Below are positions 7,654-31,400 of a stretch of 64,000 bases of DNA, one piece after another. This DNA is from Mycobacteriales bacterium. Lineage in GTDB: Bacteria; Actinomycetota; Actinomycetes; BP-191. The position numbers and the translations under genes are program-made. The notes below the pieces were generated by a model. The model saw nothing but the letters and a program-made list of their open reading frames with translations, did not search any database and was not told the DNA's origin. The first letter of the stretch is position 1. Every line of letters begins with the position of its first letter. The stretch spans positions 1 through 64,000 of the forward strand of contig DASTMB010000074.1 of the NCBI GenBank assembly GCA_035714365.1, in the 5' to 3' direction.

Positions 7654-7801
7654 GCGGTGAGTATCGGGCGCGCTCGGCGCCGATGTGGGGGGATCGCCGG
7701 AATGTCCCGGTTCGCCGGGTGTCGCGGCGGCGGCAGGAGCGGGGGAGCGCGGCGGCGAAGCAACGGAGCGTAGGTCCCTCGCCCCTCACCGGAGGAACGC
7801 C

Positions 7802-9154: not shown

Positions 9155-9169
9155 GCCCCGCAACGCCCG

Positions 9170-9205
9170 AAGGGCCGCCTCCCCGTTGCGCGGGAGGCGG
9201 CCCTT
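9170..9205. terminator. Bidirectional hairpin terminator
   Basis: A 14-bp perfect inverted repeat (AAGGGCCGCCTCCC and its complement) with an 8-nt loop lies between two convergent genes. It has a TT end on one side and AA on the other, so it can serve both. Confidence 0.8.
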
Positions 9206-9222
9206 CGTGCGTGCGGAGCGGG

Positions 9223-11649
9223 CTAGCCGATCGTCCAGCGGTCCAGGCAGACCAGGTTGCCGGTGGCGCCGGCGCGGTGCGTGCCGAGCACGACCAGCTT
9301 CACCGTGTGCACCTGGTCGGAGAGGCCGGTGACGGTGCGGCGGACGTTGTACGCGGTGGTCGCCGCCCAGTTGTCGTACGTCGCCTTGAGGACGCCGTCG
9401 ACGTAGAGCGACGCCTTGCCGCGGTTCGGGCCGGTGCTGGTCCACCACGAGATCGACGTGCCGCGGAACTGGAGGGTCGCCTGCTCGTTCGCCAGGTCCG
9501 CGACCGCGAGGAACCCGCCCGACGCCGCCGACACCGGCGCGGAGCGCCAGGAGTAGGTGAGCGTCGGGTTGGCGGTCAGCGTGCTGCCGACCTTGACCGC
9601 GTCGAACGACACGAACGTCCCCGTGCCCTTCGTGCTGCCCTTCTTGCCGGTGGCCACGACGCGCAGCTTGTGCGTGGCCGCGGTCAGCCCCACGATCGGG
9701 CGCGGCACGCGGTAGGTCGTGGTGGCCGCGTAGTTGTTGACCGTCGCCCGCTTGACGCCGTCGACGTAGACGTCGGCGGTGCCCTGGTTCGGGCCGGTCA
9801 CCGTGTACCAGGTGACCGCCGTGCCGGCGAACGTGTACGCGACCGCGGCGTTCGGGAAGTGCTCGGTGACGTAGGTCGAGCCGAGCGCCGCCGATGTCGG
9901 CACCGCGCGCCAGGTGTAGCGGGCGGACGGGCTGACCTCCTGCACCGTGGTGGCCGCGCGGAACGCCGTCGTCTTGGTGGCGACCGCGTTGCCCGCCACG
10001 TCGGCGACGGTCGGGGCCGCGGCCGGGTTGACGACCGCGGTGTAGTGCTGGCCCGCGACGAGCGCGGACTTCGGCTTGAGCGCCGCCGTGCGGACGGCGC
10101 CGCTGGCGCAGTCGACCGCGGCGTTGCCGGCGTCGGCGCAGGTGACGGTCGCCGGCAGGTTGGTGACGGTCGAGGCGACGCGGAGCACGAACGACGCCGC
10201 GCTCACGCCGTGCACGGCCTCGCCGAACGTCGCGACGACCGGGCCGTTGAGCGCGGCCGGCGCGGTGACGGTGACGAGCGGCGCGATGATGTCGATCGTC
10301 CAGCCGTACGTCGTCTGCGCGGTGTTGCCCGCCGCGTCCGTCGCGGTGACGACCAGGCTGTGCGCGCCCGGCACGAGCGAGGAGTACGACTGGCCGTCGG
10401 CGCAGGCGGTCGCGGTCGCGCCGTCGAGCGCGCAGGTGAACGTCACCAGCGCCTCCGTGTCGGTGATCCCGAACGTCGCGGTCGTGGCCTTGGTGACCGC
10501 CGCCGGGCCGGTGACGCTCGGGGCCGGCGGCGGGGTGGCGTCGACCGTCCACGCCCACGGCGTGGCACCGGACTCGTTGGTGGCGGCGTCGCGGCCGAGG
10601 ACGGCGAGCGTGTGCGCGCCGTCGGCGAGCGAGGCCGTCGAGAACGACGAGCCGCAGTCGGCGTAGTCGCCGCCGTCGACCGAGCAGCGGAGCTGCGTCG
10701 CGTCGTGCGCGTCGAACGTGAACGACCCGACGGCCACCTTCGTGACCGCGGCCGGGCCGGTGAGGATCGACGGCGGCGTCGGCGCGGTGGTGTCGACGGT
10801 CCACGCGAACTGCGTGGCCGACGCGGTGTTGCCGGCCGCGTCGCTCGCCTTCACGTCGAACGTGTGCGGGGCCTCGCTGAACGACGAGTAGGACGGGGCG
10901 GTGGTGCAGGCCTCGTACGCGCCGCCGTCGAGCGAGCAGGTGAGCGTCGCGTCCGGGTCGGCCTCGTAGACCGCGAACGTCGCGGTGGTGGCGTTGGTGA
11001 TCGTGGCCGGGCCGGTCGTCACCGACGGCGCCGGGGGCGGCGTGGTGTCGACGGTCCAGGCGCCGCTCGTGGGGGCGCTCTCGTTGCCGGCGCCGTCGAC
11101 CGCGACGACGTCGACCGTGTGGCCGCCGTCGGCGAGGCCGGTGAGCGACAGCGGCGAGGTGCAGGCGGTCGCGGTGGCGCCGTCGACCGCGCAGCGGAAC
11201 GTCGTGCCGGCCTCGGTGTCGCCGAACGTCAGCGTCGCCGACGTGGCCTGCGTCGTGCCGGACGGCACGCCGGACAGCGACGGCGCGGGCGGCGCCGTGA
11301 GGTCGATCGTCCACGCGGCGCTGGTGGCGTTGCCGATGAGGGAGCCGCTGCGGGCGCGGACCCGGAACGTGTGGGCGCCCGCGGCCAGCGACGAGTACGT
11401 CTTCGGGCTGGCGCAGGTGCCGTAGGCGGTCCCGTCGAGCGCGCACTGGAACGTCACGCCGGACATGGCGTCCGTGAACGCGAACGTCGCCGTCCGCGCG
11501 TTCGTCAGCGCGGGCGGCTTGCTGGTGATCGTCGGCGCCGGCGGCTTCTTCTTCGCGGCGGCCCCCGCCGTGCCGGCCAGCGGGCCGGCGACGAGGGCGG
11601 CCGCGCCGAAGGCGGCGGCGGAGCGGAGCAGTACGCGGCGAGTCGGCAT
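9223..11649 (-). CDS. Secreted multi-Ig-repeat protein with two C-terminal jelly-roll-like repeats
   Basis: An 808-residue exported protein. The N-terminus has a twin-arginine-like signal (TRRVLLRSAAAFGAAAL). About five repeats of 90 or so residues follow, each with the pattern TF.CALDG....C....S...L..G.H...V.A.D..GN, the bacterial Ig-like fold often found in adhesins and wall-associated proteins. After a divergent Ig-like unit (about 440-560) come two related domains of about 115 residues (YTWRAVP... and YSWRSAP...). Both contain W-Y/W-T-x-TGPN-x-G and Y-VDG-V, likely beta-sandwich carbohydrate-binding-like units. No enzyme motif is seen. Each repeat has a Cys pair that may be oxidised outside the cell. 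ATG at 11649 follows AGGGGA. One ACA Thr codon is present (9895-9897 on the plus strand). Confidence 0.8.
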   Translation of the reverse strand: MPTRRVLLRSAAAFGAAALVAGPLAGTAGAAAKKKPPAPTITSKPPALTNARTATFAFTDAMSGVTFQCALDGTAYGTCASPKTYSSLAAGAHTFRVRARSGSLIGNATSAAWTIDLTAPPAPSLSGVPSGTTQATSATLTFGDTEAGTTFRCAVDGATATACTSPLSLTGLADGGHTVDVVAVDGAGNESAPTSGAWTVDTTPPPAPSVTTGPATITNATTATFAVYEADPDATLTCSLDGGAYEACTTAPSYSSFSEAPHTFDVKASDAAGNTASATQFAWTVDTTAPTPPSILTGPAAVTKVAVGSFTFDAHDATQLRCSVDGGDYADCGSSFSTASLADGAHTLAVLGRDAATNESGATPWAWTVDATPPPAPSVTGPAAVTKATTATFGITDTEALVTFTCALDGATATACADGQSYSSLVPGAHSLVVTATDAAGNTAQTTYGWTIDIIAPLVTVTAPAALNGPVVATFGEAVHGVSAASFVLRVASTVTNLPATVTCADAGNAAVDCASGAVRTAALKPKSALVAGQHYTAVVNPAAAPTVADVAGNAVATKTTAFRAATTVQEVSPSARYTWRAVPTSAALGSTYVTEHFPNAAVAYTFAGTAVTWYTVTGPNQGTADVYVDGVKRATVNNYAATTTYRVPRPIVGLTAATHKLRVVATGKKGSTKGTGTFVSFDAVKVGSTLTANPTLTYSWRSAPVSAASGGFLAVADLANEQATLQFRGTSISWWTSTGPNRGKASLYVDGVLKATYDNWAATTAYNVRRTVTGLSDQVHTVKLVVLGTHRAGATGNLVCLDRWTIG

Positions 11650-11830
11650 CCGGTCCCCTGCGAGAAGTGGCGAGGTGGGTCCCCCGTGGGCCGAGCCGGC
11701 CCGGGTGTTCCGCCGAGTCTGCCCAGGCGAGTCCGCGTCTGTCCGGCGAACGGCCGAGAAAGTTCACCCGTCCGGGTGTGTGGCGACGTGTCCGCAGGAG
11801 CGGGACCGCGGCGCGCCGAACGTTGCGGGC

Positions 11831-13435
11831 ATGCGACCCCTCACCCGCCTCCTCGGCTACGCCGCCGCCGTCGCGCTGGCCGCCTCGGCCCTCGCCGGCA
11901 CCTCGGCCGCCGCGCCCGCCCGTGCCGGCGACGACGCCGTCGTCGTGGCCGTCATCGACTCCGGCTTCTCGCCGTACCACTGGGACTTCCTCGCGTCGAA
12001 GATGCCGCAGGCACGGACCGCCACGAAGGCGGACGACCTGCCGCTCGACCGGGCGCCGCACACCTGGCTGCGCGGCTTCCCGGAGCCGTCGGCGTTCGGG
12101 ACGTACGCGCCGCTGCGGCTGAGCCTCGACGGCCGCAACGCGAAGACGTCCCAGGCGAAGCTGTTCCAGCGGGACGCCCGCGCGTGGGACTCGGTCGAGG
12201 GGAGCAACCGCTCGGACACGTCGTACTACTGGCTGCCGGGCACGAAGGTGATCGGCGCGATGTCGTTCGGCTCCGGCACCGACACCCCGATCTGGGGCGC
12301 CGGGGCGGTCGAGCACGGCATGGGCACCACCACCGTCTCCGTCGGCAACGTGCACGGCACCTGCCCCGAGTGCCTGCTGGTGTTCCTCCAGGCGAACGGC
12401 GACGACCAGTACGAGGCCGCCATCGAGTGGGCGCTGCGGCAGCCGTGGATCGACGCGATCAGCAACTCGTACGGCGTCTCGGCGACCGGCGTCCTCCGCG
12501 ACCGGGTCTACGCCGGCTCCGACACGGCGTTGCAGAAGACGGCGACCGAGCGCGGCAAGACCGTCTTCTTCTCCTCCGGCAACGGCGTGATGAACGACTT
12601 CGTCACCCCCAACACCACGCTGCTGTCCTCGCAGGAGGGCCCGGACTGGCTGGTCACGGTCGGCGCCACCGACCCGGCCGACGTCGACTACCCCGGCGCG
12701 GGCAAGCCGGCCGACATCGCGGGCATCGGCACCGCCTACCCTTCCGGCTACGGCTCCACGACCGTGAGCGACGGCGCCGACTTCAGCGGCACCTCCAACG
12801 CCACGCCCACCATCGCCGGCACGTACGCCCGCGCGCTGTGGCTGGCCCGGGACGCCCTGTCCGGCCCGTCGCGGGTCCAGAGCGGCGGCGTCGTGGCCCG
12901 GGGCGGCCGGTACGCGTGCGGCGCCAAGCGGCGCGCCTGCGAGCTCGGCGACGGCGTGCTCACGCGGACCGAGCTGGAACGCCGCCTGTTCCAGGGCGCC
13001 ACGCCGACCACCGGCGGCTTCGCCGGGCGCCGCAGGGTGCCGTCCAGCATCCTCGGCGTCGTCCCGGTCCCGCCGCCCGTCGGCGGCACGCCGGTGCCGT
13101 TCGTGACCACGCCGCCGGTCGCCGACAGCCGCCGGTTCTCCGAGGGGTACGGCACCTACCGCGCCCGCCTCGACGGGACCGCGAAGTGGCTCAAGGAGTT
13201 CGAGACGAGGTTCTGGGGGCCGCTGCGCGGCACCGCCCCGGCGCCGGCCCGGCCGGCGGGGGACACCGAGTGGTTCCGCGTCGACTCGTGGTGCCGCCAG
13301 CACGTGTGGGGCACCTGGCGCGGCGGCGCGTACCTCGACGAGACGAGGACGCCGCTCCCGCTGCCCGACCCGGCGACGCCGTCGCGCAACGCCTACCAGG
13401 CCGGCTGCAACGCGCTGACCCGCCCACCGGTCTAG
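11831..13435 (+). CDS. Secreted subtilisin-like (S8) serine protease
   Basis: A 534-residue exported peptidase of the S8 family with a signal peptide (about 1-34) and no obvious long propeptide. The triad is visible: Asp in VVAVIDSGF, His in VEHGMGTTTVSVGNVHG, Ser in FSGTSNATP. The region between His and Ser is longer than usual and the active-site surroundings are divergent (IDSGFSPYH, with EHGMGT instead of HGTHVAG). A C-terminal extension of about 180 residues is rich in Pro and Gly and has two Cys. It is a single gene divergent from the Ig-repeat gene. It differs clearly from the classical subtilase at the right end of the window. Confidence 0.85.
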   Translation: MRPLTRLLGYAAAVALAASALAGTSAAAPARAGDDAVVVAVIDSGFSPYHWDFLASKMPQARTATKADDLPLDRAPHTWLRGFPEPSAFGTYAPLRLSLDGRNAKTSQAKLFQRDARAWDSVEGSNRSDTSYYWLPGTKVIGAMSFGSGTDTPIWGAGAVEHGMGTTTVSVGNVHGTCPECLLVFLQANGDDQYEAAIEWALRQPWIDAISNSYGVSATGVLRDRVYAGSDTALQKTATERGKTVFFSSGNGVMNDFVTPNTTLLSSQEGPDWLVTVGATDPADVDYPGAGKPADIAGIGTAYPSGYGSTTVSDGADFSGTSNATPTIAGTYARALWLARDALSGPSRVQSGGVVARGGRYACGAKRRACELGDGVLTRTELERRLFQGATPTTGGFAGRRRVPSSILGVVPVPPPVGGTPVPFVTTPPVADSRRFSEGYGTYRARLDGTAKWLKEFETRFWGPLRGTAPAPARPAGDTEWFRVDSWCRQHVWGTWRGGAYLDETRTPLPLPDPATPSRNAYQAGCNALTRPPV

Positions 13436-13449
13436 CGACCCCGGACACG

Positions 13450-13486
13450 CGACGAGGCCCCCGCCTGCCGGCGTGGGGCCTCGTCG
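13450..13486. terminator. Hairpin terminator between the subtilase gene and the tRNA pair
   Basis: A 12-bp perfect inverted repeat (CGACGAGGCCCC and its complement) with a 13-nt spacer, followed by TT. It ends the rightward subtilase gene and the leftward tRNA transcript. Confidence 0.8.
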
Positions 13487-13490
13487 TTCG

Positions 13491-13562
13491 TGGGCGATAG
13501 TGGTGTCGAACCACTGGCCTCTACCGTGTCAAGGTAGCGCTCTCCCGCTGAGCTAATCGCCC
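13491..13562 (-). tRNA. tRNA-Val (anticodon GAC)
   Basis: A 72-nt cloverleaf on the minus strand: acceptor GGGCGAT paired with ATCGCCC, anticodon stem CTACC/GGTAG with loop TTGACAC (anticodon GAC), T loop TTCGACA and discriminator A. It lies 1 nt downstream of tRNA-Cys and is likely co-transcribed with it. CCA is not encoded. Confidence 0.95.
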
Positions 13563-14486: not shown

Positions 14487-15650
14487 ATGAGCACCGCCAC
14501 GCCCACGCTGCCCCGGACCCCCCGGCCCGGCGCGCGCGACGATGTCGAGGCGATGATCGGCGACACGCCGCTCGTCCGGCTGCGCCGGATGTTCCCGGCC
14601 GACGGTCCGGCCGTCTACCTCAAGCTCGAGCAGTTCAACCCGGGCGGCAGCGTCAAGGACCGCACCGCGCTCGGCATCATCCGCCACGCCGAGGAGACCG
14701 GCGTGCTGCGGCCCGGCATGACGATCGTGGAGAGCTCGTCCGGCAACACCGCGATCGGGCTGTCGCTGCTCGCGCAGTCGCGCGGCTACCACGTCGTCGC
14801 GATCTGCGACCGGCACCTGCCGGCGGTCAAGCGGGCGCGGCTGCGCGCGTTCGGCGCCGACGTCGTGTTCCTGCCGGACACGCCGCCGGGCATGGACACC
14901 GTGCAGCTGCGCATCCGTCTCGCCGAGCACCTGGCGAACGTGCTCCCGGACGCGGTGACGCTCGGCCAGTACTCGAGCCCGGGCAACGCGCGGATCCACT
15001 ACGAGACCACCGGCGCCGAGATCTGGCGCGACACCGGCGGGCATGTGTCCGCCCTCGTCGCCGCGGTCGGCACCTGCGGCACGATCACCGGCGCCGGGCG
15101 GTACCTGAAGGAGCGCGACCCGTCGGTCTCCGTCGTCGGCGTGGAGCCGGTGGGCTCGGTCGTGTTCGGCGGCGACCACGGGACCTACCTCGTCCAGGGC
15201 GGCGGCCTCAGCTTCGTGCCGAGCATCTTCGACGGCGGCGTCGTCGACACCGGCATCAAGGTCGACGACGCGACGACGTTCGGCTGCGTGCGCGACACGG
15301 CGTTGCGCGAGGGGTGGCTGCTCGGCGGCACCGGCGGGCTGGTCGTCGCCGGCATCCAGCGGATCGCCGAGCGGTACGGCCCGGACGACACCGTCGTCGG
15401 GATCGTCGCGGACTCGGGGGACCGGTACGTCGAGACGCTGTTCGACGAGGACTGGATGGCGGGCCACGCGGCCGGCGCCGCGCCGGTGTCCGCGTGGGCG
15501 GCCCACCCGGCGACCGCCGCGCTGACGCAGGCGCTCGGCTGCAGCGTCAACGCCGTCCCGGCCGACCCGGGGCCGGCGCTCGCGGAGTTCTGCCACACGA
15601 TCGGGTTCGACCCGGCCGGGCTGCCGGTGCCGCCGGAGGGTGCCGCGTGA
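14487..15650 (+). CDS. PLP-dependent beta-substitution enzyme (cysteine synthase / SbnA-like)
   Basis: A 387-residue fold-type II PLP enzyme of the O-acetylserine sulfhydrylase family. The Schiff-base Lys is K57 in NPGGSVKDR; the substrate loop is ESSSGNTAIG and the PLP phosphate loop GTCGTITGAG. It carries a C-terminal extension of about 60 residues (AHPATAALTQALGC...) absent from ordinary CysK. The long forms I know include SbnA, which joins O-phosphoserine to glutamate on the way to 2,3-diaminopropionate, and related enzymes in antibiotic clusters. No SbnB-type dehydrogenase is next to it. It is the first enzyme gene of a five-gene operon and most likely makes a beta-substituted alanine. 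The exact nucleophile cannot be read from the sequence. Confidence 0.8.
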   Translation: MSTATPTLPRTPRPGARDDVEAMIGDTPLVRLRRMFPADGPAVYLKLEQFNPGGSVKDRTALGIIRHAEETGVLRPGMTIVESSSGNTAIGLSLLAQSRGYHVVAICDRHLPAVKRARLRAFGADVVFLPDTPPGMDTVQLRIRLAEHLANVLPDAVTLGQYSSPGNARIHYETTGAEIWRDTGGHVSALVAAVGTCGTITGAGRYLKERDPSVSVVGVEPVGSVVFGGDHGTYLVQGGGLSFVPSIFDGGVVDTGIKVDDATTFGCVRDTALREGWLLGGTGGLVVAGIQRIAERYGPDDTVVGIVADSGDRYVETLFDEDWMAGHAAGAAPVSAWAAHPATAALTQALGCSVNAVPADPGPALAEFCHTIGFDPAGLPVPPEGAA

Positions 15651-16804
15651 GCGGGTACCTCCTCCTCCACTACGACGAGTTCCACACGCCGCTCGGGCTC
15701 GTCTCGCCGCTGCTCACCGGCGACGGCCCGCGCGTCGTGCTGCACGTCCGCGTCGACGACGCCGACGACGGCGGCGCGGCGCCCGCCGAGGGCTGGGTGC
15801 GGGAGCACGTCGACGCGCGGGACGAGTTCGCCGCCGGGTACCTCACCCGCGCGGTCAAGGCGAACGCCGTGTACGAGGGCGGCTACTACCTCTCCGCCGC
15901 GCTGTCCCGCCCGCTGCTCGCCGCGGTGTGCGCGCGCTCGCTGCGCGAGCGCGGCATCGGCGTGCTGGTCCACGGCTTCGCCGGCAACGACCAGCTCCGC
16001 TTCGAGATGGCGGTGCAGGCGCTCGCGCCGGAGACGACGATCGTGTCGGTCGCCAGCCTGCTCGGCAGCCAGAACGACCGCAACGGCGACGGCTACACCG
16101 TCAGCACCAACCTCTGGGGCCGCAGCGTCGAGGCCGGCCCGCTCGCCGACCCCGCGACCCGCCCGCCCGCCGAGGTGTTCGAGCGCGCCGGGGCGGGGTT
16201 CGCCACCGACGTGCCCGCCGCGCTGCACACGGTGTCGTTCGAGCGAGGCGTGCCGGTGGCGTTCGACGGCGTCGCGAGCGGGCTGCCGGACCTGCTGCGC
16301 CGGGTGGAGGCGGCCGCGCGGCCGCACGGCTTCGGCTACACCGACCTGGTCGAGGACGGCGCGATCGCGCTGAAGACCCGTGCGGTCTACGAGTCGCCCG
16401 CCGCGATCGTGCTCGTCGCCGCGCACCGCGACCTGGAGCGCCTCGTCGCGACGCGCGCGCAGAACCGGTTCAAGGCGCTGGTCGACCAGGCGTGGGCCGA
16501 GCTGGTCTACGACGGCTACTGGTTCGACGCGCAGCGGGAGAGCCTGGACGCGTACGTCGACAGCGTGAACCGCTGGGTCACCGGCGACGTCGACCTGCTG
16601 TTCCGGCCCGGCGGCGTGCACGTCGTCGGCCGCCGGTCCCCGCACGGCCTCTACGGCGAGGCCGAGTCCATCTACCGCTTCGGCCAGGACTTCGGCGCGC
16701 GCGAGGCGACCGCGGTCGCCTCCTCGCTGTCGGCCCACATGCGCGCGTCGGTCCGGCGCGGCGCCACCGCACGAGAGAACGGGAACCCCCGATGGAACGC
16801 CTGA
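15647..16804 (+). CDS. Argininosuccinate synthase-like protein lacking the ATP P-loop
   Basis: A 385-residue relative of argininosuccinate synthase, starting with a GTG that overlaps the previous stop (GTGA). Matches along the family are clear: VDARDEF, AVKANAVYEGGYYLSAALSRPLL, GNDQLRFEM, STNLWGRSVEAGPL, FERGVPVAFDG, LKTRAVYESPAA and VVGRRSPHGLYGE. What is missing is the N-terminal PP-loop that binds ATP (SGGLDTS in the family); here the start reads LLLHYDEFHTPLG. The HG.TGKGND loop is shortened to HGFAGND. So ATP-driven adenylation may be lost or altered while the citrulline/aspartate binding fold is kept. In the operon it may act on a ureido or guanidino intermediate. This is inference. Confidence 0.8.
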   Translation: MSGYLLLHYDEFHTPLGLVSPLLTGDGPRVVLHVRVDDADDGGAAPAEGWVREHVDARDEFAAGYLTRAVKANAVYEGGYYLSAALSRPLLAAVCARSLRERGIGVLVHGFAGNDQLRFEMAVQALAPETTIVSVASLLGSQNDRNGDGYTVSTNLWGRSVEAGPLADPATRPPAEVFERAGAGFATDVPAALHTVSFERGVPVAFDGVASGLPDLLRRVEAAARPHGFGYTDLVEDGAIALKTRAVYESPAAIVLVAAHRDLERLVATRAQNRFKALVDQAWAELVYDGYWFDAQRESLDAYVDSVNRWVTGDVDLLFRPGGVHVVGRRSPHGLYGEAESIYRFGQDFGAREATAVASSLSAHMRASVRRGATARENGNPRWNA

Positions 16805-17589
16805 TGTGCCCTCCGACGTACTTCGACGTCGAGTACAGCATCAACCCCTGGATGGACGTCGCGGTGCCGGTGGACAAGGCGCTCGCGGCCGACCAGTGGC
16901 AGCACCTCTACGACACGCTGGTCGAGCTCGGCGACACGATCCACCTGGTGGACGCGGCGCCGGGGCTGCCGGACATGACGTTCTCCGGCGACGCCGGGAT
17001 GGTGTGGCAGCGGACGTTCGTGCCGAGCAACTTCCGCCACCCGGAGCGGCAGGGCGAGGTCGCGCACTACCTGCCGTGGTTCGAGGCGAACGGCTACGCG
17101 ATCCGGCCGATGCCGGACGACGTGGTGTTCGAGGGCCTCGGCGACGTGGTGTTCCACAACGCGCGCGCGTTCGTCGGCCACGGCATCCGCTCCGACGAGC
17201 GGGCGATCGAGGTGCTCGGCGAGGTCGTGCCGCGGCTCGAGGTGCTCGGCTCGCTGGAGATCGTCGACGACCACTACTTCCACCTCGCGATGGCGCTCGG
17301 GTTCGTCGACGACGACACGGTCGTCTACTACCCGCCGGCGTTCACGCCCGAGTCCGAGGTCGTGATCCAGAAGGCGGTCGCGAACGCGATCCCGGTCTCG
17401 GCGGAGGACGCGAACACGTTCTTCGCCTGCAACAACCTCGTCATCGGCGACACCGTCCTCATCGACGACTGCACGCCGGCGCTGCGCGAGGACCTCGGTG
17501 CGTACGGCTACCGCGTCCGCACCGTCCCCATGTCGGAGTTCAAGAAGAGCGGCGGGTCGCTGCGGTGCCTCGTCCTCAGCTTCATGTGA
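16792..17589 (+). CDS. Arginine deiminase/amidinotransferase-fold enzyme (DDAH-like)
   Basis: A 265-residue member of the guanidine-modifying superfamily (DDAH, arginine deiminase, amidinotransferase). It begins with the family signature CPPTYFDVEYSINPWMD, has FSGDAGMV (acidic substrate-binding region), DDHYFHLAMALGF with the catalytic His, and ends with GGSLRCLVLSF, where the Cys is the expected nucleophile. Both hydrolysis of a methylated or plain guanidine and amidino transfer are possible. The ATG at 16792 overlaps the previous gene by 13 nt; an ATG at 16804 (TGATG overlap) is an equally good start and gives MCPPTYF. It is probably used to make or trim the guanidine/ureido group of the operon's product. 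Confidence 0.85.
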   Translation: MERLMCPPTYFDVEYSINPWMDVAVPVDKALAADQWQHLYDTLVELGDTIHLVDAAPGLPDMTFSGDAGMVWQRTFVPSNFRHPERQGEVAHYLPWFEANGYAIRPMPDDVVFEGLGDVVFHNARAFVGHGIRSDERAIEVLGEVVPRLEVLGSLEIVDDHYFHLAMALGFVDDDTVVYYPPAFTPESEVVIQKAVANAIPVSAEDANTFFACNNLVIGDTVLIDDCTPALREDLGAYGYRVRTVPMSEFKKSGGSLRCLVLSFM

Positions 17590-17619: not shown

Positions 17620-19311
17620 ATGAAGGTCCTGGGGGTCAACGCGGTCTACCACGAGACGTCGGCGGCGCTCGTCGTCGACGGCGAGGTCGTGGCCGCGGTC
17701 GAGGAGGAGCGGTTCAACCGGCGCAAGCACGGCGCGGAGGCCCGCGTCGACAACGCCGACGAGCTGCCGCTGGAGTCGATCCGCTACTGCCTCGGCGCGG
17801 CCGGCGTGACGGCGGCCGAGCTCGACGCGGTCTGCTACTCGTTCGACCCGGCGGCACGCCGGCGGCGCAACCAGCTCGACCCGTACGCGGTGCCGGGGAG
17901 CTGGGGCAGCCTCGACGGCGAGGCGGCGTTCCTCGCCGGCCTGGGCCGCGTCGAGCGGGCGCTGTCGGACGCGCTCGGCGAGCCGGTCGGCGACCGGCTG
18001 CGCTGGGTCCCGCACCACCTCGCGCACGCCGCGTCGAGCTACTACGCGTCGCCGTTCGACGAGGCCGCGATCCTCGTCGCCGACGGCATCGGCGAGTACG
18101 ACTCGACGCTGCTCGCGTACGGCTCGGGCGGGCGGATCACGCCGGTGCGGACGTTCTCGTTCCCGGATTCGCTCGGCTTCCTCTGGGAGCGGCTCAGCGC
18201 GTTCCTCGGCTTCTCCGAGTACGACGCCTGCAAGGTCATGGGCCTGGCCGGCTACGGCGACCCGCGGCGGTACGAGGACCTCATGGCGAAGATCGTGCGC
18301 GTCGAGCCGGGGGCGTTCGCGGTCGACGACAACATCACGCAGTTCCGGCAGCCGGTGTCGGAGGAGCTGGCCCGGCTGTTCGGCCCGCTGCCGTCGCGCA
18401 TCGGCCGGGTGCACGAGGACGTCGCCGCCGCGCTCCAGCACGCCACGAACGAGATCGTGCTCTCGCTCGCCCGCAGCCTCTACGACGCCCGTCCCACGCG
18501 CGGCCTCTGCCTCGCCGGCGGCGTGGCGCTGAACTGCACCGCGAACTGGGTGCTCAAGGAGAACGGCCCGCACGAGGAGGTCTACGTCCCGAGCGCGCCG
18601 CACGACGCGGGCACCGCGGTCGGCGCGGCCCTGCACGAGTACCACCGGGTCCGCCCGCGGGACGCGGTGCGGGTGCGGGCCGGCGCGTCGCCGTACACCG
18701 GCCCGGAGTTCGGCGACGCGGAGGTCCTCGCGGCCGTCGAGCGGCACGGGCTGACGGCGGCCCGGCTCGACGACGCGCCGGCCGAGGCGGCCCGGCGGAT
18801 CGCCGCGGGCGAGGTCGTCGGCTGGTTCCAGGGCCGCATGGAGTTCGGCCCGCGCGCGCTCGGCAACCGCTCGCTGCTCGCCGACCCGCGCGACCCGTAC
18901 ATGCGCGACAAGCTCAACGTGAAGGTCAAGCACCGCGAGCCGTTCCGGCCGTTCGCGCCCAGTGTGCTCGCCGAGCGGGCCGCGGAGTGGCTCGAGCTGG
19001 GCCGCCCGTCGGACAGCTACGAGTACATGCTCTACGCCTGCCCGGTGCGCGAGGAGGTCGCCGACCGGATCCCCGCCGTCCTCCACGTCGACGGCACGGC
19101 GCGGGTGCAGCTCGTGACGGCCGGGAGCAACGCGCGGTACCACGCGCTGATCTCGGCGTTCCACGCGCTGACCGGCGTGCCGGTCGTGCTGAACACGTCG
19201 TTCAACGACTCCGAGCCGATCGTCTGCACGCCGGACGACGCGATCGCGACGTTCCTCAAGACCGACATCGACGCGCTGTTCCTCGGCGACCACCTGGTGA
19301 CGAAGCGATGA
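17620..19311 (+). CDS. NodU/CmcH-type O-carbamoyltransferase
   Basis: A 563-residue carbamoyltransferase of the NodU/TobZ family, about the usual length. The N-terminal ATP-grasping half begins MKVLGVNAVYHETSAAL and has VPHHLAHAASSYYASPF with the catalytic His pair and VADGIGEYDST. The C-terminal YrdC-related half has GWFQGRMEFGPRALGNRS and KHREPFRPFAPSV. Family members use carbamoyl phosphate and ATP to carbamoylate a hydroxyl (antibiotics, Nod factors). A GGGAGGG ribosome-binding site precedes the ATG. In this operon it may carbamoylate the side chain of the amino acid intermediate or of the final product. All motifs appear intact. Confidence 0.9.
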   Translation: MKVLGVNAVYHETSAALVVDGEVVAAVEEERFNRRKHGAEARVDNADELPLESIRYCLGAAGVTAAELDAVCYSFDPAARRRRNQLDPYAVPGSWGSLDGEAAFLAGLGRVERALSDALGEPVGDRLRWVPHHLAHAASSYYASPFDEAAILVADGIGEYDSTLLAYGSGGRITPVRTFSFPDSLGFLWERLSAFLGFSEYDACKVMGLAGYGDPRRYEDLMAKIVRVEPGAFAVDDNITQFRQPVSEELARLFGPLPSRIGRVHEDVAAALQHATNEIVLSLARSLYDARPTRGLCLAGGVALNCTANWVLKENGPHEEVYVPSAPHDAGTAVGAALHEYHRVRPRDAVRVRAGASPYTGPEFGDAEVLAAVERHGLTAARLDDAPAEAARRIAAGEVVGWFQGRMEFGPRALGNRSLLADPRDPYMRDKLNVKVKHREPFRPFAPSVLAERAAEWLELGRPSDSYEYMLYACPVREEVADRIPAVLHVDGTARVQLVTAGSNARYHALISAFHALTGVPVVLNTSFNDSEPIVCTPDDAIATFLKTDIDALFLGDHLVTKR

Positions 19312-20945
19312 CGACCAGCGCGGAGCGGCCGGTGCTCGCCGCCGCGACGGAGTTCGCCGACCACGGGTGGGTCGACTCCGTCGCCGCGGCCGAGGGCCGC
19401 TTCGTGCTGCGCAACGCGCGCGGTCGCTGGGACGTGCGCTGCGACGGTGGCGGTCCGGCCGCCGCGCTCACGCGGCTGCGGCCCGAGTCGGCGGTCGAGG
19501 TGAGCGGCCGGCTGGAGCCGGGGGAGGGCGGCGCGGCCGTCGTCCGCTGCGCGCGCCTCGACGTGCGCAACCTCGCGGAGCCGCTGCCGTTCACCCCGGC
19601 CACCCGCGAGGCGGCGCCCGCCGACGTGCGCGCGCGGTACCGGTACCTGGAGCTCCGCGACGACGCGGTGCGCGAGCTGCTCGTCGCCCGGCACCGCGCG
19701 GTGCACGCGCTGTCCTGCCACCTGGCCGACCTCGGCTTCGTCTCCGTCGAGACGCCCCTGCTGGCCGTGCCGTCCGGGAGCGGCGCGCGGGAGTTCACCG
19801 TGCGCGGCACCGGCGACGTCGAGTACGCGCTGCCGCAGTCGGCGCAGGTCTACGGCCACCTGCTCGTCGCCGGCGGCGTCGAGCGGTACTACCAGCTCTC
19901 CCGGTGCTTCCGCGACGAGGACCTCCGCGCCAACCGGCAGCCGGAGTTCACCCAGCTCCACCTGGAGCAGGCGTTCGCGACGACCGACGACGTCGTGCGG
20001 GTCGTCGAGGGGGCGGTGGTGGCGGCGTTCGCGGCGTGCGGGCGCCCGGTCGCGACACCGTTCCCGCGGCTCACCTACGACGACTGCGTCGCGCGCTACG
20101 GCACCGACACCCCGGACCTGCGGCACGAGCCGCTGTTCCGCGTGCTGCCGTGCCGGCTCGACCGCCGCCGGGAGGGGCCGGCCGACCTGTTCTCGGTCGC
20201 GCCCGCCGACGGCGTGGAGCTCACCGCCGACGACTGGGCGGCCGTCGCGCGCGCAGGCGACCGCGCCGGCTGCCGGCTCGCCGGCTACGCGCCGGCCGGC
20301 GCGCCGGACCCGGACGAGGCGGCGCTGGCGTTCCCCGCGCTGCGCGTGGCGCTCGACCTCGCCGACGCGCCGTTCCCCGGCTGCGTCGCGGTCCTCGCCG
20401 GGCCGGCCGCCCGTGCCGCGAAGGTGTGCCGCGCGGTCTACACCGCCTCGCTCGCGCACCCGGCGCCCGGCGGGCCGCGGCCGGCCTGGGTCACGGCGTT
20501 CCCGATGTTCGAGGCGGACGCCGCGGCGCCCGCCGGCGTCGCCGCGGCGAACAACCCGTTCGTCGCGCCGCTGGACGAGGCGGCGTTCCGGGCCGCCCGC
20601 AAGAAGGTGGAGCTGCTCGCGCTGCGCGGGGCGTCGTTCGACCTCGTCGTCGACGGCGTCGAGCTGGGCAGCGGCTCCGTCGTCAACCACCGGCCCGAGG
20701 TGCAGGAGCGGGTGCTCCAGCTCCTCGGGATGCCGCGCGAGGAGGTGCGCCGGCTGGGCTTCCTGCTCGAGGCGCTGCGGTACGGCGCGCCGCCCGTCGC
20801 CGGCTTCGGGCTCGGCGTCGACCGGCTCGTCGCCGCGATCACCGGCGCGCCCGGCATCCGCGACGTCATCGCGTTCCCCAAGACCAAGACCGGCCGCTGC
20901 CCGATGACCGGCGGCGCGGAGAGGGGAGGTGGCGGGCCGAGCTGA
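19308..20945 (+). CDS. Aspartyl-tRNA synthetase paralogue with altered substrate pocket
   Basis: A 545-residue class II aminoacyl-tRNA synthetase of the bacterial AspRS type, its ATG overlapping the previous stop (ATGA). Order: divergent OB-fold (about 15-95), motif 1, motif 2 (RCFRDEDLRANRQPEFTQL), a shortened GAD-like insertion and motif 3 (GFGLGVDRL). Set against E. coli AspRS by eye, ATP-binding residues are kept but residues that read Asp are not: the Lys at 198 is Gly183 (QSAQVYG), Arg489 is Val459 (GSGSVVNH), Asp233 is His (QLHLE), and the HH pair of HHPF is NN (N415-N416). Loss of both cationic residues argues for a neutral or basic substrate. The tRNA-like gene 17 nt downstream is the likely partner. 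Codon 250 (20055-20057) is an ACA. Confidence 0.85.
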   Translation: MTTSAERPVLAAATEFADHGWVDSVAAAEGRFVLRNARGRWDVRCDGGGPAAALTRLRPESAVEVSGRLEPGEGGAAVVRCARLDVRNLAEPLPFTPATREAAPADVRARYRYLELRDDAVRELLVARHRAVHALSCHLADLGFVSVETPLLAVPSGSGAREFTVRGTGDVEYALPQSAQVYGHLLVAGGVERYYQLSRCFRDEDLRANRQPEFTQLHLEQAFATTDDVVRVVEGAVVAAFAACGRPVATPFPRLTYDDCVARYGTDTPDLRHEPLFRVLPCRLDRRREGPADLFSVAPADGVELTADDWAAVARAGDRAGCRLAGYAPAGAPDPDEAALAFPALRVALDLADAPFPGCVAVLAGPAARAAKVCRAVYTASLAHPAPGGPRPAWVTAFPMFEADAAAPAGVAAANNPFVAPLDEAAFRAARKKVELLALRGASFDLVVDGVELGSGSVVNHRPEVQERVLQLLGMPREEVRRLGFLLEALRYGAPPVAGFGLGVDRLVAAITGAPGIRDVIAFPKTKTGRCPMTGGAERGGGGPS

Positions 20946-20962: not shown

Positions 20963-21210
20963 ACCGGAGTGGCGGAACTGGGAAACGCACAGGTCTTGTA
21001 AACCTGCCGCTCGGCATCGGTCGCCGACACGGTGACGACACGTCCTCCGGTGCCCTATGACCGGTGGACCGGCCACGACGGATCAGCATCCGACCGGGCG
21101 GCCTCGGCCGGGCCGTCCGTTGCTGAGGTCGGGTGTCCGTCCACGGCCCTTGTCACCGTCAGGCTGCTGAGACCCGGGCCTTGGGGGTTCGAATCCCCTC
21201 TCCGGTGCCA
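20963..21210 (+). tRNA. tRNA-like RNA, anticodon UGU, with a 176-nt insertion before the T arm
   Basis: The 5' part is a clean tRNA: acceptor ACCGGAG (20963-20969), D arm with stem GCG/CGC, anticodon stem CAGGT/ACCTG (20990-20994, 21002-21006) and loop CTTGTAA, giving anticodon UGU for ACA codons. The 3' part is also clean: T arm with loop TTCGAAT (21183-21199), acceptor CTCCGGT (21200-21206, perfect 7 bp), discriminator G and encoded CCA. Between them lie 176 nt (21007-21182) instead of a normal variable loop. These can form a long rod: 21019-21025 with 21162-21174, 21029-21036 with 21152-21159 (8 bp), and 21037-21041 with 21133-21137. G73 is an AspRS identity base and A1-U72 is unusual for tRNA-Thr. 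It is either a giant variable arm or an insertion removed later. Confidence 0.7.
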
Positions 21211-21246
21211 GACGCGGCCCCGTCCTCCCCCGGGCGGGGCCGCGTC
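21211..21246 (+). terminator. Terminator after the tRNA-like gene
   Basis: An 11-bp perfect inverted repeat (GACGCGGCCCC / GGGGCCGCGTC) directly after the encoded CCA, followed by a short T tract. A close copy lies after the first leader-peptide gene. Confidence 0.75.
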
Positions 21247-21354: not shown

Positions 21355-21531
21355 ATGAACGCACGGACGCTGCGGCTGCGCCGCGAGGCGCTGCACGAGC
21401 TCACCACCGTCGAGCTCGGCCGGGTACAGGGCGCGGGGGTCGTCGACACGACAACCTGCCAGACCACCGAGCTGCTCACGCCGTTCATCGCGACCGGACA
21501 GTCGCAGGACACAACCTGCACGTCGTTCTAG
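21355..21531 (+). CDS. Leader-peptide (RiPP precursor-like) gene 1 with two ACA codons
   Basis: A 58-residue peptide with a charged leader (ARTLRLRREALHELTTVELG) like the leaders of class I lanthipeptide-type and other ribosomal natural-product precursors, then AGVV and a 28-residue core rich in Thr with two Cys. Only two Thr codons are ACA, codons 33 and 53 (21451-21453, 21511-21513), each one codon before a T-C pair. The paralogue downstream has ACA at codon 33 too and again in an Asp-ACA-x-Cys setting, though the cores differ. GGGAGGG lies before the ATG. No lanthionine synthetase or exporter is near, so leader processing must come from elsewhere. The core may receive the amino acid made by the upstream operon (inference). 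Confidence 0.75.
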   Translation: MNARTLRLRREALHELTTVELGRVQGAGVVDTTTCQTTELLTPFIATGQSQDTTCTSF

Positions 21532-21782: not shown

Positions 21783-21959
21783 ATGCAGGCACGCACGCTG
21801 CGGCTGCGGCGGGAGGCGCTGCACGAGCTCACGAGCGAGGAGCTCGGCTCGATCCTCCGCGCGGGCGCCGTCGGCAGCACACCGACGGACACGCTCACCA
21901 CGTCGATCGTCGTCGGGCCGCTCACGCTCGACACACGGTGCGCAACCTCGGTGGGCTGA
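21783..21959 (+). CDS. Leader-peptide (RiPP precursor-like) gene 2 with two ACA codons
   Basis: A 58-residue paralogue of the gene at 21355. The leader (ARTLRLRREALHELTSEELG) is nearly the same; the core differs (AGAVGSTPTDTLTTSIVV...LDTRCATSVG) and has one Cys. The only ACA Thr codons are codon 33 (21879-21881) and codon 51 (21933-21935), the first at the same codon number as in paralogue 1 and the second again as Asp-ACA-x-Cys. Other Thr codons are ACC or ACG. Keeping the ACA codon at fixed places while the surrounding residues change suggests the codon itself, not just Thr, is under selection. GGAGGGAGG precedes the ATG. Confidence 0.75.
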   Translation: MQARTLRLRREALHELTSEELGSILRAGAVGSTPTDTLTTSIVVGPLTLDTRCATSVG

Positions 21960-25490: not shown

Positions 25491-28400
25491 TCATGCCGCG
25501 AGCGCGTAGTTCTCGACGGCGGTGTACGCCGCCGCCGCCATGGCCATCACGGCGGCGGCCTCCTCGATCGCGACCACCGTCGCGGCGGCTGCCGCGAGCG
25601 CCTCGACCGCGACGACGGCGACCGCCGCGACCGCCGCGACCGCGACCACCACGCCGACCGCGACGAGCGTCACCATCATCGGATTCTCCCACCAGGCGCC
25701 GGCGAAGCTGAGCGGCAGCGGCTCGGTCGTCATCCACTGCGGGGACGGGTTCGGCCACGGCTCGCTCTTCGGCTGGCTGAAGTCCATGTACGGGCTCTCC
25801 TCGGCCGGCTTCTGGACCTCACCCGGCATCGGCGTCTTCCGCACCAGGCTCTCCCGGTACTTCTTCGCGCGTTCGTCGTCGACGTAGTTGTAGTACCGCG
25901 CGCCGCTCGGGGCCGCGGACGGCGGCGACACGACGTAGAACGTGCCCTTCCCGACGCGGAGCTGCGACGTCGGGAGCCACTGACCCGGCGAAGCCTGCTG
26001 GCCGCGGAGCTGGAACTCCTTGACGAACCGCTTCGCGTCCCGCTCCGCGGTGCGCCGGCCGTACTCGTTGTAGGGCTTGACCTCCCAGACGTAGTAGTGG
26101 CCGTTGTAGAGCAGCACGATGTCCGGCCGCGGACCCCAGTTGCGGTTGTTCTCCTTGCCGGGGACGAGCGACTTCAGCCGGCAGCCGCGCAGGATGCCGA
26201 TGTCGCGGTCGAACCCGGGGACGGCCGCGCAGAGCTGCGCGCCCTTCGGCAGCGACGCCTGGATCGTCAGCGCGGTGAGGAACACCGCCGCGTCGTGCGC
26301 CTCGGAGCTGCCCTTCGCGTCGGGGATCGGCCCGTCCAGCGGCCGGCCGTGCGGGGCGCCGTCGGAGCCCATCATGCTGAGCCAGTACGTCATCGCCGCG
26401 CACTCGTCGCCGCCGTCGTCGCAGCCCGGCCGGTGCCCGTCGGGGTCGACGAGGTTCAGCGGGTCGCCGTTGACGTACGAGTAGACGTTCCGGGTCAACG
26501 GGTCGTTGCCGACCGAGCCCTTCCCGTCCGGAGCGCTCGTGCGCACGGTGTCCTGCGTGTTGAACGACGCGCGGGCGGGGTCGTAGGTGCGCGACCCCAT
26601 CTGGTAGGTGCCGGTGGTGGCGTCGCGGCGGGCGCCGTGGAACAGCAGCGACGTCGGCGTCGAGCCGGTGGAGCAGGCGTTGGTGGCGCTCTGCCCGCCG
26701 ATCGGGGAGCCGAACGGGTCGTACCGCAGCGAGCAGGCGACCGTCGCCGAGCTCGTCGGCAGCGTCGTGCTGACGGAGCCGCGGGCGTCGTCGGTCAGGT
26801 ACTGCGGCTGCGAGCCGGTCCGCGCCACCGCGGTCGCCACGCCGTCCGGACGGAGCGCGTAGTCGATCGCGCCGCCGCTCGGCGTGGTCTCCTGGGCGAG
26901 CGTCTTGCTCGCCCCGTCGTAGTACAGCGTGGTCGTGCCGGGCGTCGTGGCGCCCGCGCCGGACTCGGTGCGGGTGGTCTGCCGGTCGAAGCCGTCGTAC
27001 GTGTACGCGGTCGTCGACGGCGTCCCGCAGCCGGTGACGGTCTTGACCGTCGCGGTGAGCTGGCGGTCGAAGCCGTCGTACGTGTTCGTCGTGCACTCGT
27101 CGCCGAGCAGCGCGCCGGACGGCGAGTACGTCGAGTGCCGCACCGGCGCCGCGGCGTTCGCCCGGCTCGTGTCGATGCTGTCGTCGGCGTTGTACGTGAA
27201 CCGCGCCGGGTCGGCCGCGGGGCCGTAGGACAGCCGGTTGCCGTCGTGGTCCCACGTCAGCTCGCGGTCGCCCTGCCGGTCCTTGAACTGCGACAGCCGG
27301 CCCGCCGGGTTGTAGCCGAAGCACTGCAGCCCGGTGGGCAGCAGTGACGGCGACTGCGCGCAGTCGAGCGACGGCGAGGTGCTGGTGCCCTGGTTCGCGG
27401 CCACGACGCGGCCGAGACCGTCGTACTGGTAGTCCCAGCGGGAGAGGACGGCGGACGCCGCCCCCGACAGCGTCTGCGACGCCACCGTGTCGTCGGGGTT
27501 GTAGACCCGCGACAGCGCCGCGCCGTTGGGCAGCGAGACGCCCGCGAGCCGGCCGGCGACGTCGTACGACCACGACTGGGTGCCGCCGGCAACCACGTCG
27601 GAGGTGAGCGACGCGAGCTGCCCGCCGTTGCCGTAGGTGTTCGTCGTCAGCACCCGGGCTCCGGTCGCGTCGACGACGTCGGCGCGCGCCACGCGAGCAC
27701 CCGAGCCGTCGTAGGCGAACTGCACGGTCCGCCCGCGCTCGCTGACCGTGCGGGGCGTCCCGTCGAGGTAGAACGTCGCGGTCGTCGTGACCGGCGACCC
27801 GCTCGCCGGCGTGTTCACGACCGAGACCGCGTGCCCCGCCGGGTCGTACGTGTAGGCGATGCTGTCCTGGCCGTTGTGGCCGCTCTGCGTCGCCATCCGG
27901 TCGTCGTCGTAGTACGTGAAGCGCGCGGTGCCCGACGACGCCGTGACGGTGCCGGACGAGTTGCGCATCACGGACAGCTCCGACGACTTGCGGCCGGCGT
28001 TGTCGTAGCCGTACGTCGTGCGCCGCGTGACGGAGCCGTCGGCGGTGAACGGGGTGGTACGGGTCTGGAGCAGGTTGTCGAGCGTGTACGTGTTGACCAC
28101 GGCGACGCCGTTGACGTTGGACGCGTCGTGCGCGTTGGCCGACGGCGACGTCGTCGTCGTGAGGTTGCCGACGGCGTCGTAGGCGTACGTCGTGTGGTCG
28201 CGCGCCGGGTCGGTCGCGCTGGTGCCGGTGCCGTAGACGTCCTTGCGCAGGCCGTCCGTGTAGTAGGACGCCGTGCTCACCCGCACGATCGGCGTCGCCG
28301 GCTGCGGGTCGACCGGGGCGTGGTTGAGCCAGGTCTTGAGCTCGACCGGCTTGCCGTTCGCGTCGTGCCGGTACTCGGTGAAGTGGTTCACCGTCGCCGT

Positions 28401-31400
28401 CGACGTGGGCTCGCCCGCCTTCGACGCGACGAGGCCGTCCGCCGTGTACGTGGTGACGTCCTGGTGGCCCAGGGCGTCCACCGTCTTCACGACCCGCCCG
28501 CTGCCGTCGTACTGGTACGTCGCCGTCACCTGCCGGCCGGTGCCGGTCGGCTGGCTCGGGTCGGGGGAGTTGACCGTGAGCGGCTTGTTGTCGTCGGTGT
28601 AGGTGGTGAGGACGTAGCGGTTGTCGGCGTTGTTCGACGTCGGCAACGTCACCTTCGTGCGGTTGCCGACGAAGTCGTACGCGTAGCGGATCACGCAGAC
28701 GCCGACGTTGCCCGGGTACGCGGGCACCCCGGTGACCGCGTCCGGCGTGGCGCCGGTCGGGCACTGCGAGGTCTGCGTCGTGCTGAGCCCCGGGTCGCTC
28801 GCGGAGGACGCGTCGTAGCGCGGGCTCCACGCCCGGATCACGCGGCCGTCGGCGTCGACGTCGGAGCGCGTCATGAAGCGCGGGTCGGGCGTCGTGGTCG
28901 ACGTCGCGAACGCGCGCGGCTCGAACTGCGCCGTGACGCGGCCCTCGCTGTCGTACATGACCCGGGTGCGGATGTTGCGCCCGCCCTGGGCGTCGGTGAG
29001 GCCGGCCGACTCCGCGAACTTCGACGACGACGCCTGGACGGTGTCGACCACGCGGTTGTCGGCGTCGTACGAGTAGGCCGTGATGCGGCCGAGCGTCCGC
29101 GTGCCGGGGTAGCTCGGGTTGTCCAGGTAGAACGGGGTGTCGGTGTCGATGCGGATGTAGCCGCTGTCGCCGTAGCCGCCCGCGGCCGGCCCGCTGCCGC
29201 CCGCGCCGCCCGTCGCGTAGACGCTGCCGAGGCTGAGGTTCGGCGCGGTGATCCACACGCCGCCACCGGAGCCGCCGCCGCCGGAGCCGCCGCCGCTGCC
29301 GCCGACGCCGGCCGTGATGGAGGTGCCGGCCGCGCCGTCGGCCGAGATCCGGCCCTCGTTGTCGAGCTGGTTGGCGGTGATGTGGATGAAACCGCCGCCC
29401 GCGCCGCCGGCGCCGCCCGGGTTGGTACCGCCCGCGCCGCCGCCGCCACCGCCGGAGCCGAGGTCGGTCGTGTTGCCGGCGTTGAGGTCGGCGGAGCCGT
29501 ACGCGGCGCCGCCGGACCCGCCCGCGCCGCCGCCGGTGGCGGTCGCGCCGTAGCTGCCCGAGTACCGGTGCCCGGCACCGCCACCGCCGCCGCCGTTCAC
29601 CGCGCCCGGCGAGCCGCCGTGGCCCGGACCCTGGCCCTGGCCGTCCGGCGCGGCGACCGTGAGCGACGTGCCGCCCGCGGCACCGGGCAGGCCGCGGCCG
29701 TCCGCGTTGATCCGGCACGAGTAGCAGACGCTGACGGTGCCGGTGGCCTTGATGTCCAGGCGGCCGCCGCCGCTGGTGTACGGCACCGCCACGACGTACG
29801 CGCCGTTGACCAGCGTGAGGTTCCGGAAGTTCTTGCCCGTGGGCATGACGTACGGGTTGCTCGCGCCGTAGACGTTGCCGTCGATGGTGAGGTCGCCGTC
29901 GGCGCCGGTGCCGAGGTCGACCGCGCCGGGACGCAGCACCGACCTGACGTTGCCGACCGAGTCGTACGTGTAGCGCGTGACGTTGGTGACGCCGGTCTCG
30001 CGCGGGACGGACTGCGTCAGCAGCCGGTTGTTGAGGTCGTACGTCGAGGTGGTGGTGGTGCCCTTGGCGTCGGTGCTCGACGTGACGTTGCCGTCGCGGT
30101 CGTAGGAGACGCTCGACGTGAGCGGGGTGCTCGCGTCGCGGTACGTCGTGGTCGTGCGCGCGCGCCCGGCCTCGTCGTACGTCGTGTGCGTGGCGTACGG
30201 GTCGCCGGCCGCGCACGTCGTGGCGCCGCCCTCCGCGAAGCTGCGCGGCGGGCAGGTGCGCAGGACGTTGCCGTCGGCGTCGTACACGGTGTCGGTGCGC
30301 AGCGTCGTCAGGACACCGTCGTAGCGCGGCGCGTCGGTGCGCACCAGCCGGTGCACGGCGTCGTAGCGCAGCGTCGTCACCTGCGCGTCGGCGTCGGTCT
30401 TCGACACGACGTTGTCGACGCCGTCGAACGACTGGAGGTTCGAGCAGACCAGGCGGCCCGCCGGCAACGGCGCGTCGGCCGTCGTCGTCGCGGTCGCGCG
30501 GCAGCCCGGCGGGCGCTGGGCCGGGTCCGTCGGGAACGGCCCGCGGGTGAAGCTCGTGGACACGACGCGGTTGACCGCGTCGTACGACGACACCGTGACC
30601 GAGCCGTTCGGGTCGGTCTTCGACGTCCGGTTGTCGAACGCGTCGTACGTGTAGCTCGTCTGCTTCCCGGCGGCGGCGCTGACGGGGGTCGCGGTCGTGA
30701 GCGGGTTGTTGTTCTTGTCGTACGTCGCGACGACGTCGTAGCTCGTCGAGTTCGCGGTGACGCCGCGCGGCGGGGTCACGCGTTCGGAGTTGCCGTTGCG
30801 GTCGACCTGCGTCTTCGTCCGGTTGCCGATCGGGTCGGCGGCCTCGGTGACGTAGCGCCACGGGTTCGACAGCGAGCCGCGGATCGACTCCGCGTAGCCG
30901 CCCGAGCAGCACGACGACCACGTGGTGGCGGTGCCATAGGTCTGCCTGCGGTCCCAGGTGCGCGCGATGTTGCCCGCCCGGTCGTAGCTGTAGGCGATGA
31001 AGTGGTCGACACCCTGGTAGTCGGACGGGTTGGACGTCGGGTCCGACACCGTCTTCAGCCACCCGCCGGCGGACGTGTTGCCGCTGAGGTCGCGCTCGGT
31101 GTCGCTGTAGTACTGGTACACGTACCTGCCGTACGTCGAGAACCAGTACGTGGTCGCCGTCGACTGCGGCGTGCGCATCGTGACGCGCTGCCCGTAGTCG
31201 TCGTAGGTGTAGTCGGTGAGGGCGGTCGTCGTGCCGTTGAACGGCTCGGTCTTGCTGCAGAGCACGCCGGTGTTGCGCGCGGTGCAGGCGCTGCCCGGGG
31301 CGGTGGTGTTCGGTGCCGTGCCGACGGCGTTGGCCGGGGCGAACGTCGTGCGGTAGTTCGCGAACGACGCGCCCGCGGCGTTGCCGCGCGGCGTCACGGA

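Follow-up and report, generated by a model that had tools for sequence, protein, structure and literature searches.

What is a transfer RNA (tRNA) gene whose variable region is 176 nucleotides (nt) long doing at the end of a biosynthetic operon? The question is raised by an element that we call tRNA-X, located at positions 20963-21210 on the forward strand of contig DASTMB010000074.1 (assembly GCA_035714365.1) from a Mycobacteriales bacterium. The window, by which we mean the whole 64,000-nt stretch of this contig that was analysed, has a G+C content of 74.5%, and the genome is 99% complete, with 98 contigs and 3.8 Mb. We consider it fairly probable that tRNA-X belongs to a dedicated amino-acid-insertion cassette, in which AspX, a paralogue of the aspartyl-tRNA synthetase (AspRS) encoded next to it, charges tRNA-X with an amino acid of its own, probably a non-proteinogenic one, for placement at ACA codons. 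All features described below lie on the forward strand unless stated otherwise.

The sequence, the folding and ARAGORN runs on shortened versions agree that tRNA-X is a complete cloverleaf with a UGU anticodon and a 176-nt variable arm. The acceptor stem is formed by ACCGGAG and CTCCGGT (7 bp, 20963-20969 with 21200-21206), followed by the D arm (20972-20988; 3-bp stem GCG/CGC, GG in the loop), the anticodon arm (20990-21006; 5-bp stem CAGGU/ACCUG, loop CUUGUAA, anticodon at 20997-20999) and, beyond the variable region, the T arm GGGGG-TTCGAAT-CCCCT (21183-21199; 5-bp stem). The 3' end consists of G73 at 21207 and an encoded CCA at 21208-21210. With its stems, the conserved U8, G18-G19, the TTC loop and CCA, tRNA-X has the cloverleaf of a functional tRNA, and both sequence and folding bear out an earlier note on this DNA, which had described the acceptor, anticodon and T arms and the CCA as intact. 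The same note placed an insertion of 176 nt where the variable loop should be, which is exactly the length found (21007-21182) and lies outside both class I (4-5 nt) and class II (roughly 10-25 nt) variable regions.

The variable region folds into a single rod, as had been suggested. The insert alone reaches -100 kcal/mol, compared with -81.7 +/- 4.6 kcal/mol for 500 dinucleotide shuffles, none of which is as stable (z = -3.96), and the fold combining the full cloverleaf with the rod lies merely 1.3 kcal/mol above the unconstrained optimum. The base of the rod is a 6-bp stem (GCUCGG/CCGGGC) at the location of the class II variable stem, and a helix previously given as 8 bp is real, its full length being 10 bp (21029-21038 paired to 21150-21159). 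The acceptor-like copy CTCCGGTGCC, which the earlier note had seen at 21045-21054, is indeed present, but it is paired inside the rod, where it makes a hairpin of its own, and no T arm precedes it, which argues against the two alternative 3' ends proposed on its account. ARAGORN makes no call for tRNA-X with the insert in place and calls a tRNA-Thr(UGU) once the insert is swapped for a 5-nt or stub variable loop; the Rfam tRNA model (RF00005) does not detect tRNA-X. A self-splicing intron or another known RNA family was rejected, as no Rfam intron or other family matches and the group I and group II models give nothing at E-values up to 10, in agreement with the earlier view that this is not a group I intron. 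A tRNA-Sec identity was likewise rejected: the Rfam score is 20.5 bits (cut-off 47; E = 0.14; 21118-21207), and we judge it a chance match to the T arm. The arms of tRNA-X are not due to chance, the object as described is real, and its complete arms together with the rod-like insertion support the appearance of a selected, intact tRNA.

When set against the genome's other recovered tRNAs, the core of tRNA-X comes closest to a tRNA-Leu (L039), with which it has in common the stretches GAGTGGCGGAACTGG-x-A-x-ACGC and GGGGTTCGA-x-TCCCCTCTC. This kinship with the genome's own tRNA-Leu suggests that tRNA-X is a re-purposed tRNA and not debris. The three ordinary tRNA-Thr of the genome (anticodons GGU, CGU and UGU) are less similar, and all of them have G1-C72 and U73, so that A1-U72 and G73 are, as had been remarked, unlike tRNA-Thr. 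Threonine identity (an NGU anticodon, G1-C72, C2-G71 and a Thr-like body) does not describe tRNA-X, which has the UGU anticodon but also A1-U72, G73 and a Leu-like body. G73 is the main discriminator for AspRS and an antideterminant for leucyl-tRNA synthetase (review PMC9976931). An excerpt of a review on non-canonical tRNAs gives a tRNA length range of 70-100 nt, and nothing like a 176-nt variable arm appears in that excerpt (PMC7609411).

The gene for AspX (19308-20945; Pfam, alignment and PDB evidence) ends 17 nt before tRNA-X starts. AspX shows 38% identity to the genome's own housekeeping AspRS, matches the class IIb synthetase family (Pfam tRNA-synt_2, 5e-79) and retains RDED in motif 2 and GxDR in motif 3. 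The aspartate-binding residues known from established structural work, K198, R489, H448-H449 and D233 in E. coli numbering, together with E171 of the flipping loop, are replaced in the alignment by G183, V459, N415-N416, H218 and S158, respectively, and the PDB alignments agree with these changes. The same pocket residues are invariant in all 32 AspRS examined from the class, and nine AspRS from other parts of the phylum retain PQS-x-Q..K, HHPF and QxDxE, as well as GSxR in each case where that motif was matched. AspX has also lost the RR..HG that is conserved in the OB-fold of housekeeping AspRS, which would fit an enzyme that has given up reading the GUC anticodon. Judged by its sequence, AspX is homologous to AspRS and would not qualify as an Asp-specific enzyme, because every assigned aspartate-binding residue has changed and the conserved set is missing.

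Two precursor-like peptides of 58 residues each are encoded after tRNA-X. Peptide 1 (21355-21531) has ACA at codons 33 (21451-21453) and 53 (21511-21513), and peptide 2 (21783-21959) has it at codons 33 (21879-21881) and 51 (21933-21935). The peptides form a tandem pair of paralogues whose lanthipeptide-type leader recurs in dozens of further peptides from the genus, and peptide 1 gives a weak match to the Pfam Mersacidin family, under the cut-off. ACA, the complement of UGU, was set as the test codon by the anticodon beforehand and was not chosen from the peptides. Each linked peptide contains exactly two ACA codons, amounting to 4 of their 23 Thr codons, compared with 24 of 3394 Thr codons (24 of all 57,152 codons) in 128 clear coding sequences of the genome, only one of which, a gene of 3789 codons, contains two. 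In the sibling precursors (57 from three genomes of the genus) the count is 3 of 467 Thr codons. ACA is the most enriched codon in the linked peptides, with four occurrences against 0.05 expected (binomial p = 2.1e-7), and Fisher tests give p = 1.2e-4 against the siblings and p = 2.9e-5 against the genome, nominal values that overstate independence because the two peptides share ancestry. Other codons ending in A or T are only slightly raised (4.5% versus 2.5%).

The positions of the codons are conserved along with their number. The first ACA is codon 33 in both peptides, and the second stands within D-ACA-[T/R]-C in both. In an ungapped comparison of the cores, 2 of 28 residues are identical, one of them being ACA-33, and the residues common to both leaders already diverge at third positions. 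Enrichment and conserved sites together suggest that the codon of tRNA-X occupies special target positions, as would be expected of an expanded code. The rod pairs with the mRNAs of the two peptides no better than shuffled sequences do (25/200 and 157/200).

The peptides resemble class I lanthipeptide precursors in that their leader is like that of other precursors of the genome, their cores contain Cys, Thr and Ser, and LanC-like proteins are encoded in the genome; they differ in the paired ACA codons, which are seen in the two linked peptides only. We also observed arrays of dozens of lanthipeptide-like precursor genes with very diverse cores (G000:C73:1000-8500, L109, and G000:C64:98000-111500, L110, with counterparts in G001 and G002). 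The C64 array is accompanied by a LanC-like gene and the C73 array by an open reading frame resembling lysine aminomutase, the latter identified by eye only.

The genes before tRNA-X lie on the same strand and are overlapping or closely spaced, and tRNA-X is the last element of this apparent operon. The first is a pyridoxal phosphate (PLP)-dependent beta-replacement enzyme of the SbnA/cystathionine-beta-synthase/cysteine-synthase family (14487-15650; NCBIfam, Pfam PALP), which scores 277 bits with the NCBIfam PLP_SbnA_fam model and 289 bits with the cystathionine-beta-synthase (CBS) model, both under the curated cut-offs. It is followed by an argininosuccinate-synthase-like protein (15647-16804; Pfam Arginosuc_syn_C, 9e-55), whose N-terminal HUP domain is matched only from model position 58 onward and whose N-terminus is missing the canonical P-loop SGGLDTS, so that its chemistry is probably altered. 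The third gene encodes a guanidine-modifying enzyme of the DDAH family similar to arginine dihydrolase (ArgZ/AgrE; 16792-17589), with Sll1336 and Alr4995 as the nearest solved relatives in the PDB (E = 9e-51), and the fourth a NodU/TobZ/GdmN-family carbamoyltransferase (17620-19311; Pfam Carbam_trans N and C; GdmN/TobZ in the PDB, E about 1e-95). The families of the four enzymes point to beta-substituted alanine combined with carbamoyl, ureido or guanidino chemistry as a common theme, from which one may guess at a small alanine derivative of the ureido-, guanidino- or carbamoyl type as the product. Directly 3' of tRNA-X, a strong G+C hairpin (21213-21242) is a possible operon terminator; a scan for T-run terminators does not call it, and an alignment of the two peptide units shows a homologous hairpin ahead of peptide gene 2. 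By gene order and family assignment, a dedicated tRNA, a synthetase and putative amino-acid-biosynthesis genes stand together here, which is the arrangement that a code expansion would predict. The interpretation given in the earlier note is partly supported overall; it missed the context provided by the AspRS paralogue, the amino-acid genes and the two peptides with paired ACA codons.

In the mechanism that we propose as the most economical reading of the locus, the four metabolic enzymes would produce a small amino acid outside the proteinogenic set, probably an alanine with a beta-ureido, guanidino or carbamoyl substituent. AspX would be an AspRS duplicate re-specified for this amino acid and would charge the adjoining tRNA-X, where G73 may have been kept as an AspRS-type determinant while A1-U72 and the giant arm would mark tRNA-X off from ordinary tRNAs. 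The rod may serve as such an orthogonality element or as a docking site for a further partner. Charged tRNA-X would then read ACA, a codon nearly unused in the genome, delivering the new amino acid to two positions in each peptide. The sequence itself shows the anatomy of tRNA-X, the gene order, the loss of the aspartate-binding residues and the pattern of ACA codons; that tRNA-X is charged, which amino acid it carries and that ACA is translated into it are what we infer from the locus.

Several observations weigh against this proposal. The main weakness is that our searches found no homologous cassette, so that the only comparison is that between the two paralogous peptides, which bears on the codons and not on the rod or the pair. 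An AspX orthologue is present neither in 394 other genomes of the class nor in a 397-genome sample of the phylum, where the best matches have at most 42% identity and those examined are housekeeping enzymes; two other genomes of the genus are without AspX, and a plasmid search returned AspRS-level matches only (<60% identity). A pattern combining the D arm with the UGU anticodon had nine matches in about 85,000 genomes, none of them homologous to tRNA-X, and no tRNA-X-like match was found in viral contigs. The peptides are tandem duplicates, so that their four ACA codons cannot be counted as having arisen independently of one another, and the AspX gene itself contains one ACA. No additional domain of AspX offers itself as an obvious holder of the rod, and large insertions in the variable arm usually lower translational activity; V-Spinach tRNAs, for example, showed only marginal activity (PMC7590224). 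Finally, an ordinary tRNA-Thr(UGU) is present in the genome, which rules out a reassignment of ACA through its loss and leaves ACA open to two readings unless tRNA-X is present in quantity or the system works conditionally; the rarity of ACA limits the damage from such ambiguity.

The searches also returned tRNA elements of a different kind. A Roseovarius metagenome-assembled genome (OX638333.1) contains at least four nearly identical copies (L158, L159, L161 and L164) of a Leu-like class II tRNA that has a UGU anticodon and lacks an encoded CCA; the copies have differing surroundings and apparently lie within a repeated mobile element. Repeated 3' halves of tRNA-Thr(UGU) (G000:C23:34157, 40488 and 43951, L178, L180 and L182; G002:C2:7353 and 13142, L177 and L179) resemble attachment sites of elements integrating into that tRNA gene, and G000:C88:14277, where a tRNA-like sequence is matched weakly, seems to hold a remnant of the same sort.

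Four other explanations have to be weighed against the proposed cassette. AspX could charge tRNA-X, with the aminoacyl-tRNA then serving outside the ribosome as a donor of the activated amino acid, in the manner of peptide aminoacyl-tRNA ligases (PEARLs), VlmA or FemX, the ACA codons being coincidental. Aminoacyl-tRNA-dependent tailoring of peptides is known (PEARLs, PMC11962472), and a huge variable arm would be less of a problem away from the ribosome; nevertheless, we recognised no PEARL, LanB-like, FemX-like or GNAT ligase among the genes of the operon, the intact anticodon arm would be needless and the paired ACA codons would be left unexplained, so we regard this use as unlikely. Quite unlikely, too, is that AspX is an aminoacyl-tRNA-synthetase-like ligase or amide synthetase acting on a small molecule or protein, comparable to AsnA or EpmA, next to a regulatory or vestigial tRNA-X. 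The low-score matches of AspX to the AsnA and EpmA/GenX models fit this idea, and ligases derived from synthetases commonly lose conserved anticodon-domain residues, but AspX retains most of the AspRS length including the N-terminal region, and the adjoining tRNA has a full cloverleaf with UUCGAAU and encoded CCA, its codon being used by the peptides.

We think it improbable that tRNA-X is an ordinary tRNA copy split by a removable sequence, an unknown bacterial intron that would leave a variable loop of normal size in the mature molecule. ARAGORN accepts the tRNA after removal of the 176 nt, which would be short for a group I intron; no intron family responds even at the relaxed Rfam threshold, and the base stem of the rod sits in the class II variable-stem place of a Leu-like core. 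Such an intron would alter only the size of mature tRNA-X and not the cassette. That tRNA-X is a tRNA pseudogene in decay, with a palindromic insert owed to chance and an unrelated biosynthetic cluster beside it, is very improbable: the lack of a homologue in any search made and the targeting of tRNA genes by mobile elements in the genus would suit it, but all arms and the CCA are intact, the Leu-like D and T arms are undegraded, the rod is far more stable than shuffles, and tRNA-X stands at the operon end with a codon match in the next two genes.

Other features of the window include a c-di-GMP-II-GAG riboswitch on the reverse strand (50086-50198; Rfam RF03169, above the gathering score) and very long open frames on both strands (25491-35261 and 6380-13500) in low-complexity, G+C-rich sequence; the frames at 6380-13500 have no match to a Pfam family.

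To our knowledge, only two amino acids are known as natural additions to the genetic code, both at stop codons. The chances are, in our view, marginally in favour of the cassette being a third natural code expansion after selenocysteine and pyrrolysine, with its own amino acid, a re-specified AspRS, a Leu-derived tRNA and ACA codons in lanthipeptide-like precursors, the ordinary tRNA-Thr being retained. A search of the open-access literature, preprints excluded, gave no described case of such a system. If true, it would show a stepwise entry of new amino acids into translation that takes place inside a disposable secondary-metabolite peptide and not in the proteome, it would supply synthetic biology with an orthogonal pair of natural origin that is directed at a sense codon, and it would mean that a tRNA with a variable arm larger than all its other parts together is tolerated on the ribosome.

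A close parallel is the pyrrolysine system pylTSBCD, likewise an operon of a dedicated tRNA, a class II synthetase and amino-acid-making enzymes, and the cassette would work alike. It does not belong to that system, which is defined by a homologue of pyrrolysyl-tRNA synthetase (PylRS) and a tRNA-Pyl reading UAG: here the synthetase derives from a bacterial AspRS, the tRNA is Leu-derived with a UGU anticodon and a giant variable arm (the variable loop of tRNA-Pyl has 3 nt), the codon would be the sense codon ACA, and the target a secondary-metabolite peptide. Like tRNA-X, tRNA-Sec and the (9/3) allo-tRNAs are non-canonical and have long variable arms, and they serve in special decoding, as tRNA-X would; tRNA-X differs in its normal 7/5 acceptor branch and 3-bp D stem, is not of the Ser type, and carries an arm far above class II size. 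The bacterial sense-codon reassignments known from Codetta turn Arg codons into other canonical amino acids genome-wide (PMC8629427); they share with ACA a rarity due to base composition and, if our proposal holds, a new meaning acquired through a tRNA change, but here a Thr codon would be used locally, probably for a non-canonical amino acid, with the ordinary tRNA-Thr(UGU) kept. The PEARLs and other tRNA-dependent enzymes of ribosomally synthesized and post-translationally modified peptides (PMC11962472) also tie tRNA biology to small ribosomal peptides; they use the ordinary aminoacyl-tRNAs of the cell, whereas the tRNA-X operon, in which no such ligase was identified, would bring a tRNA of its own.
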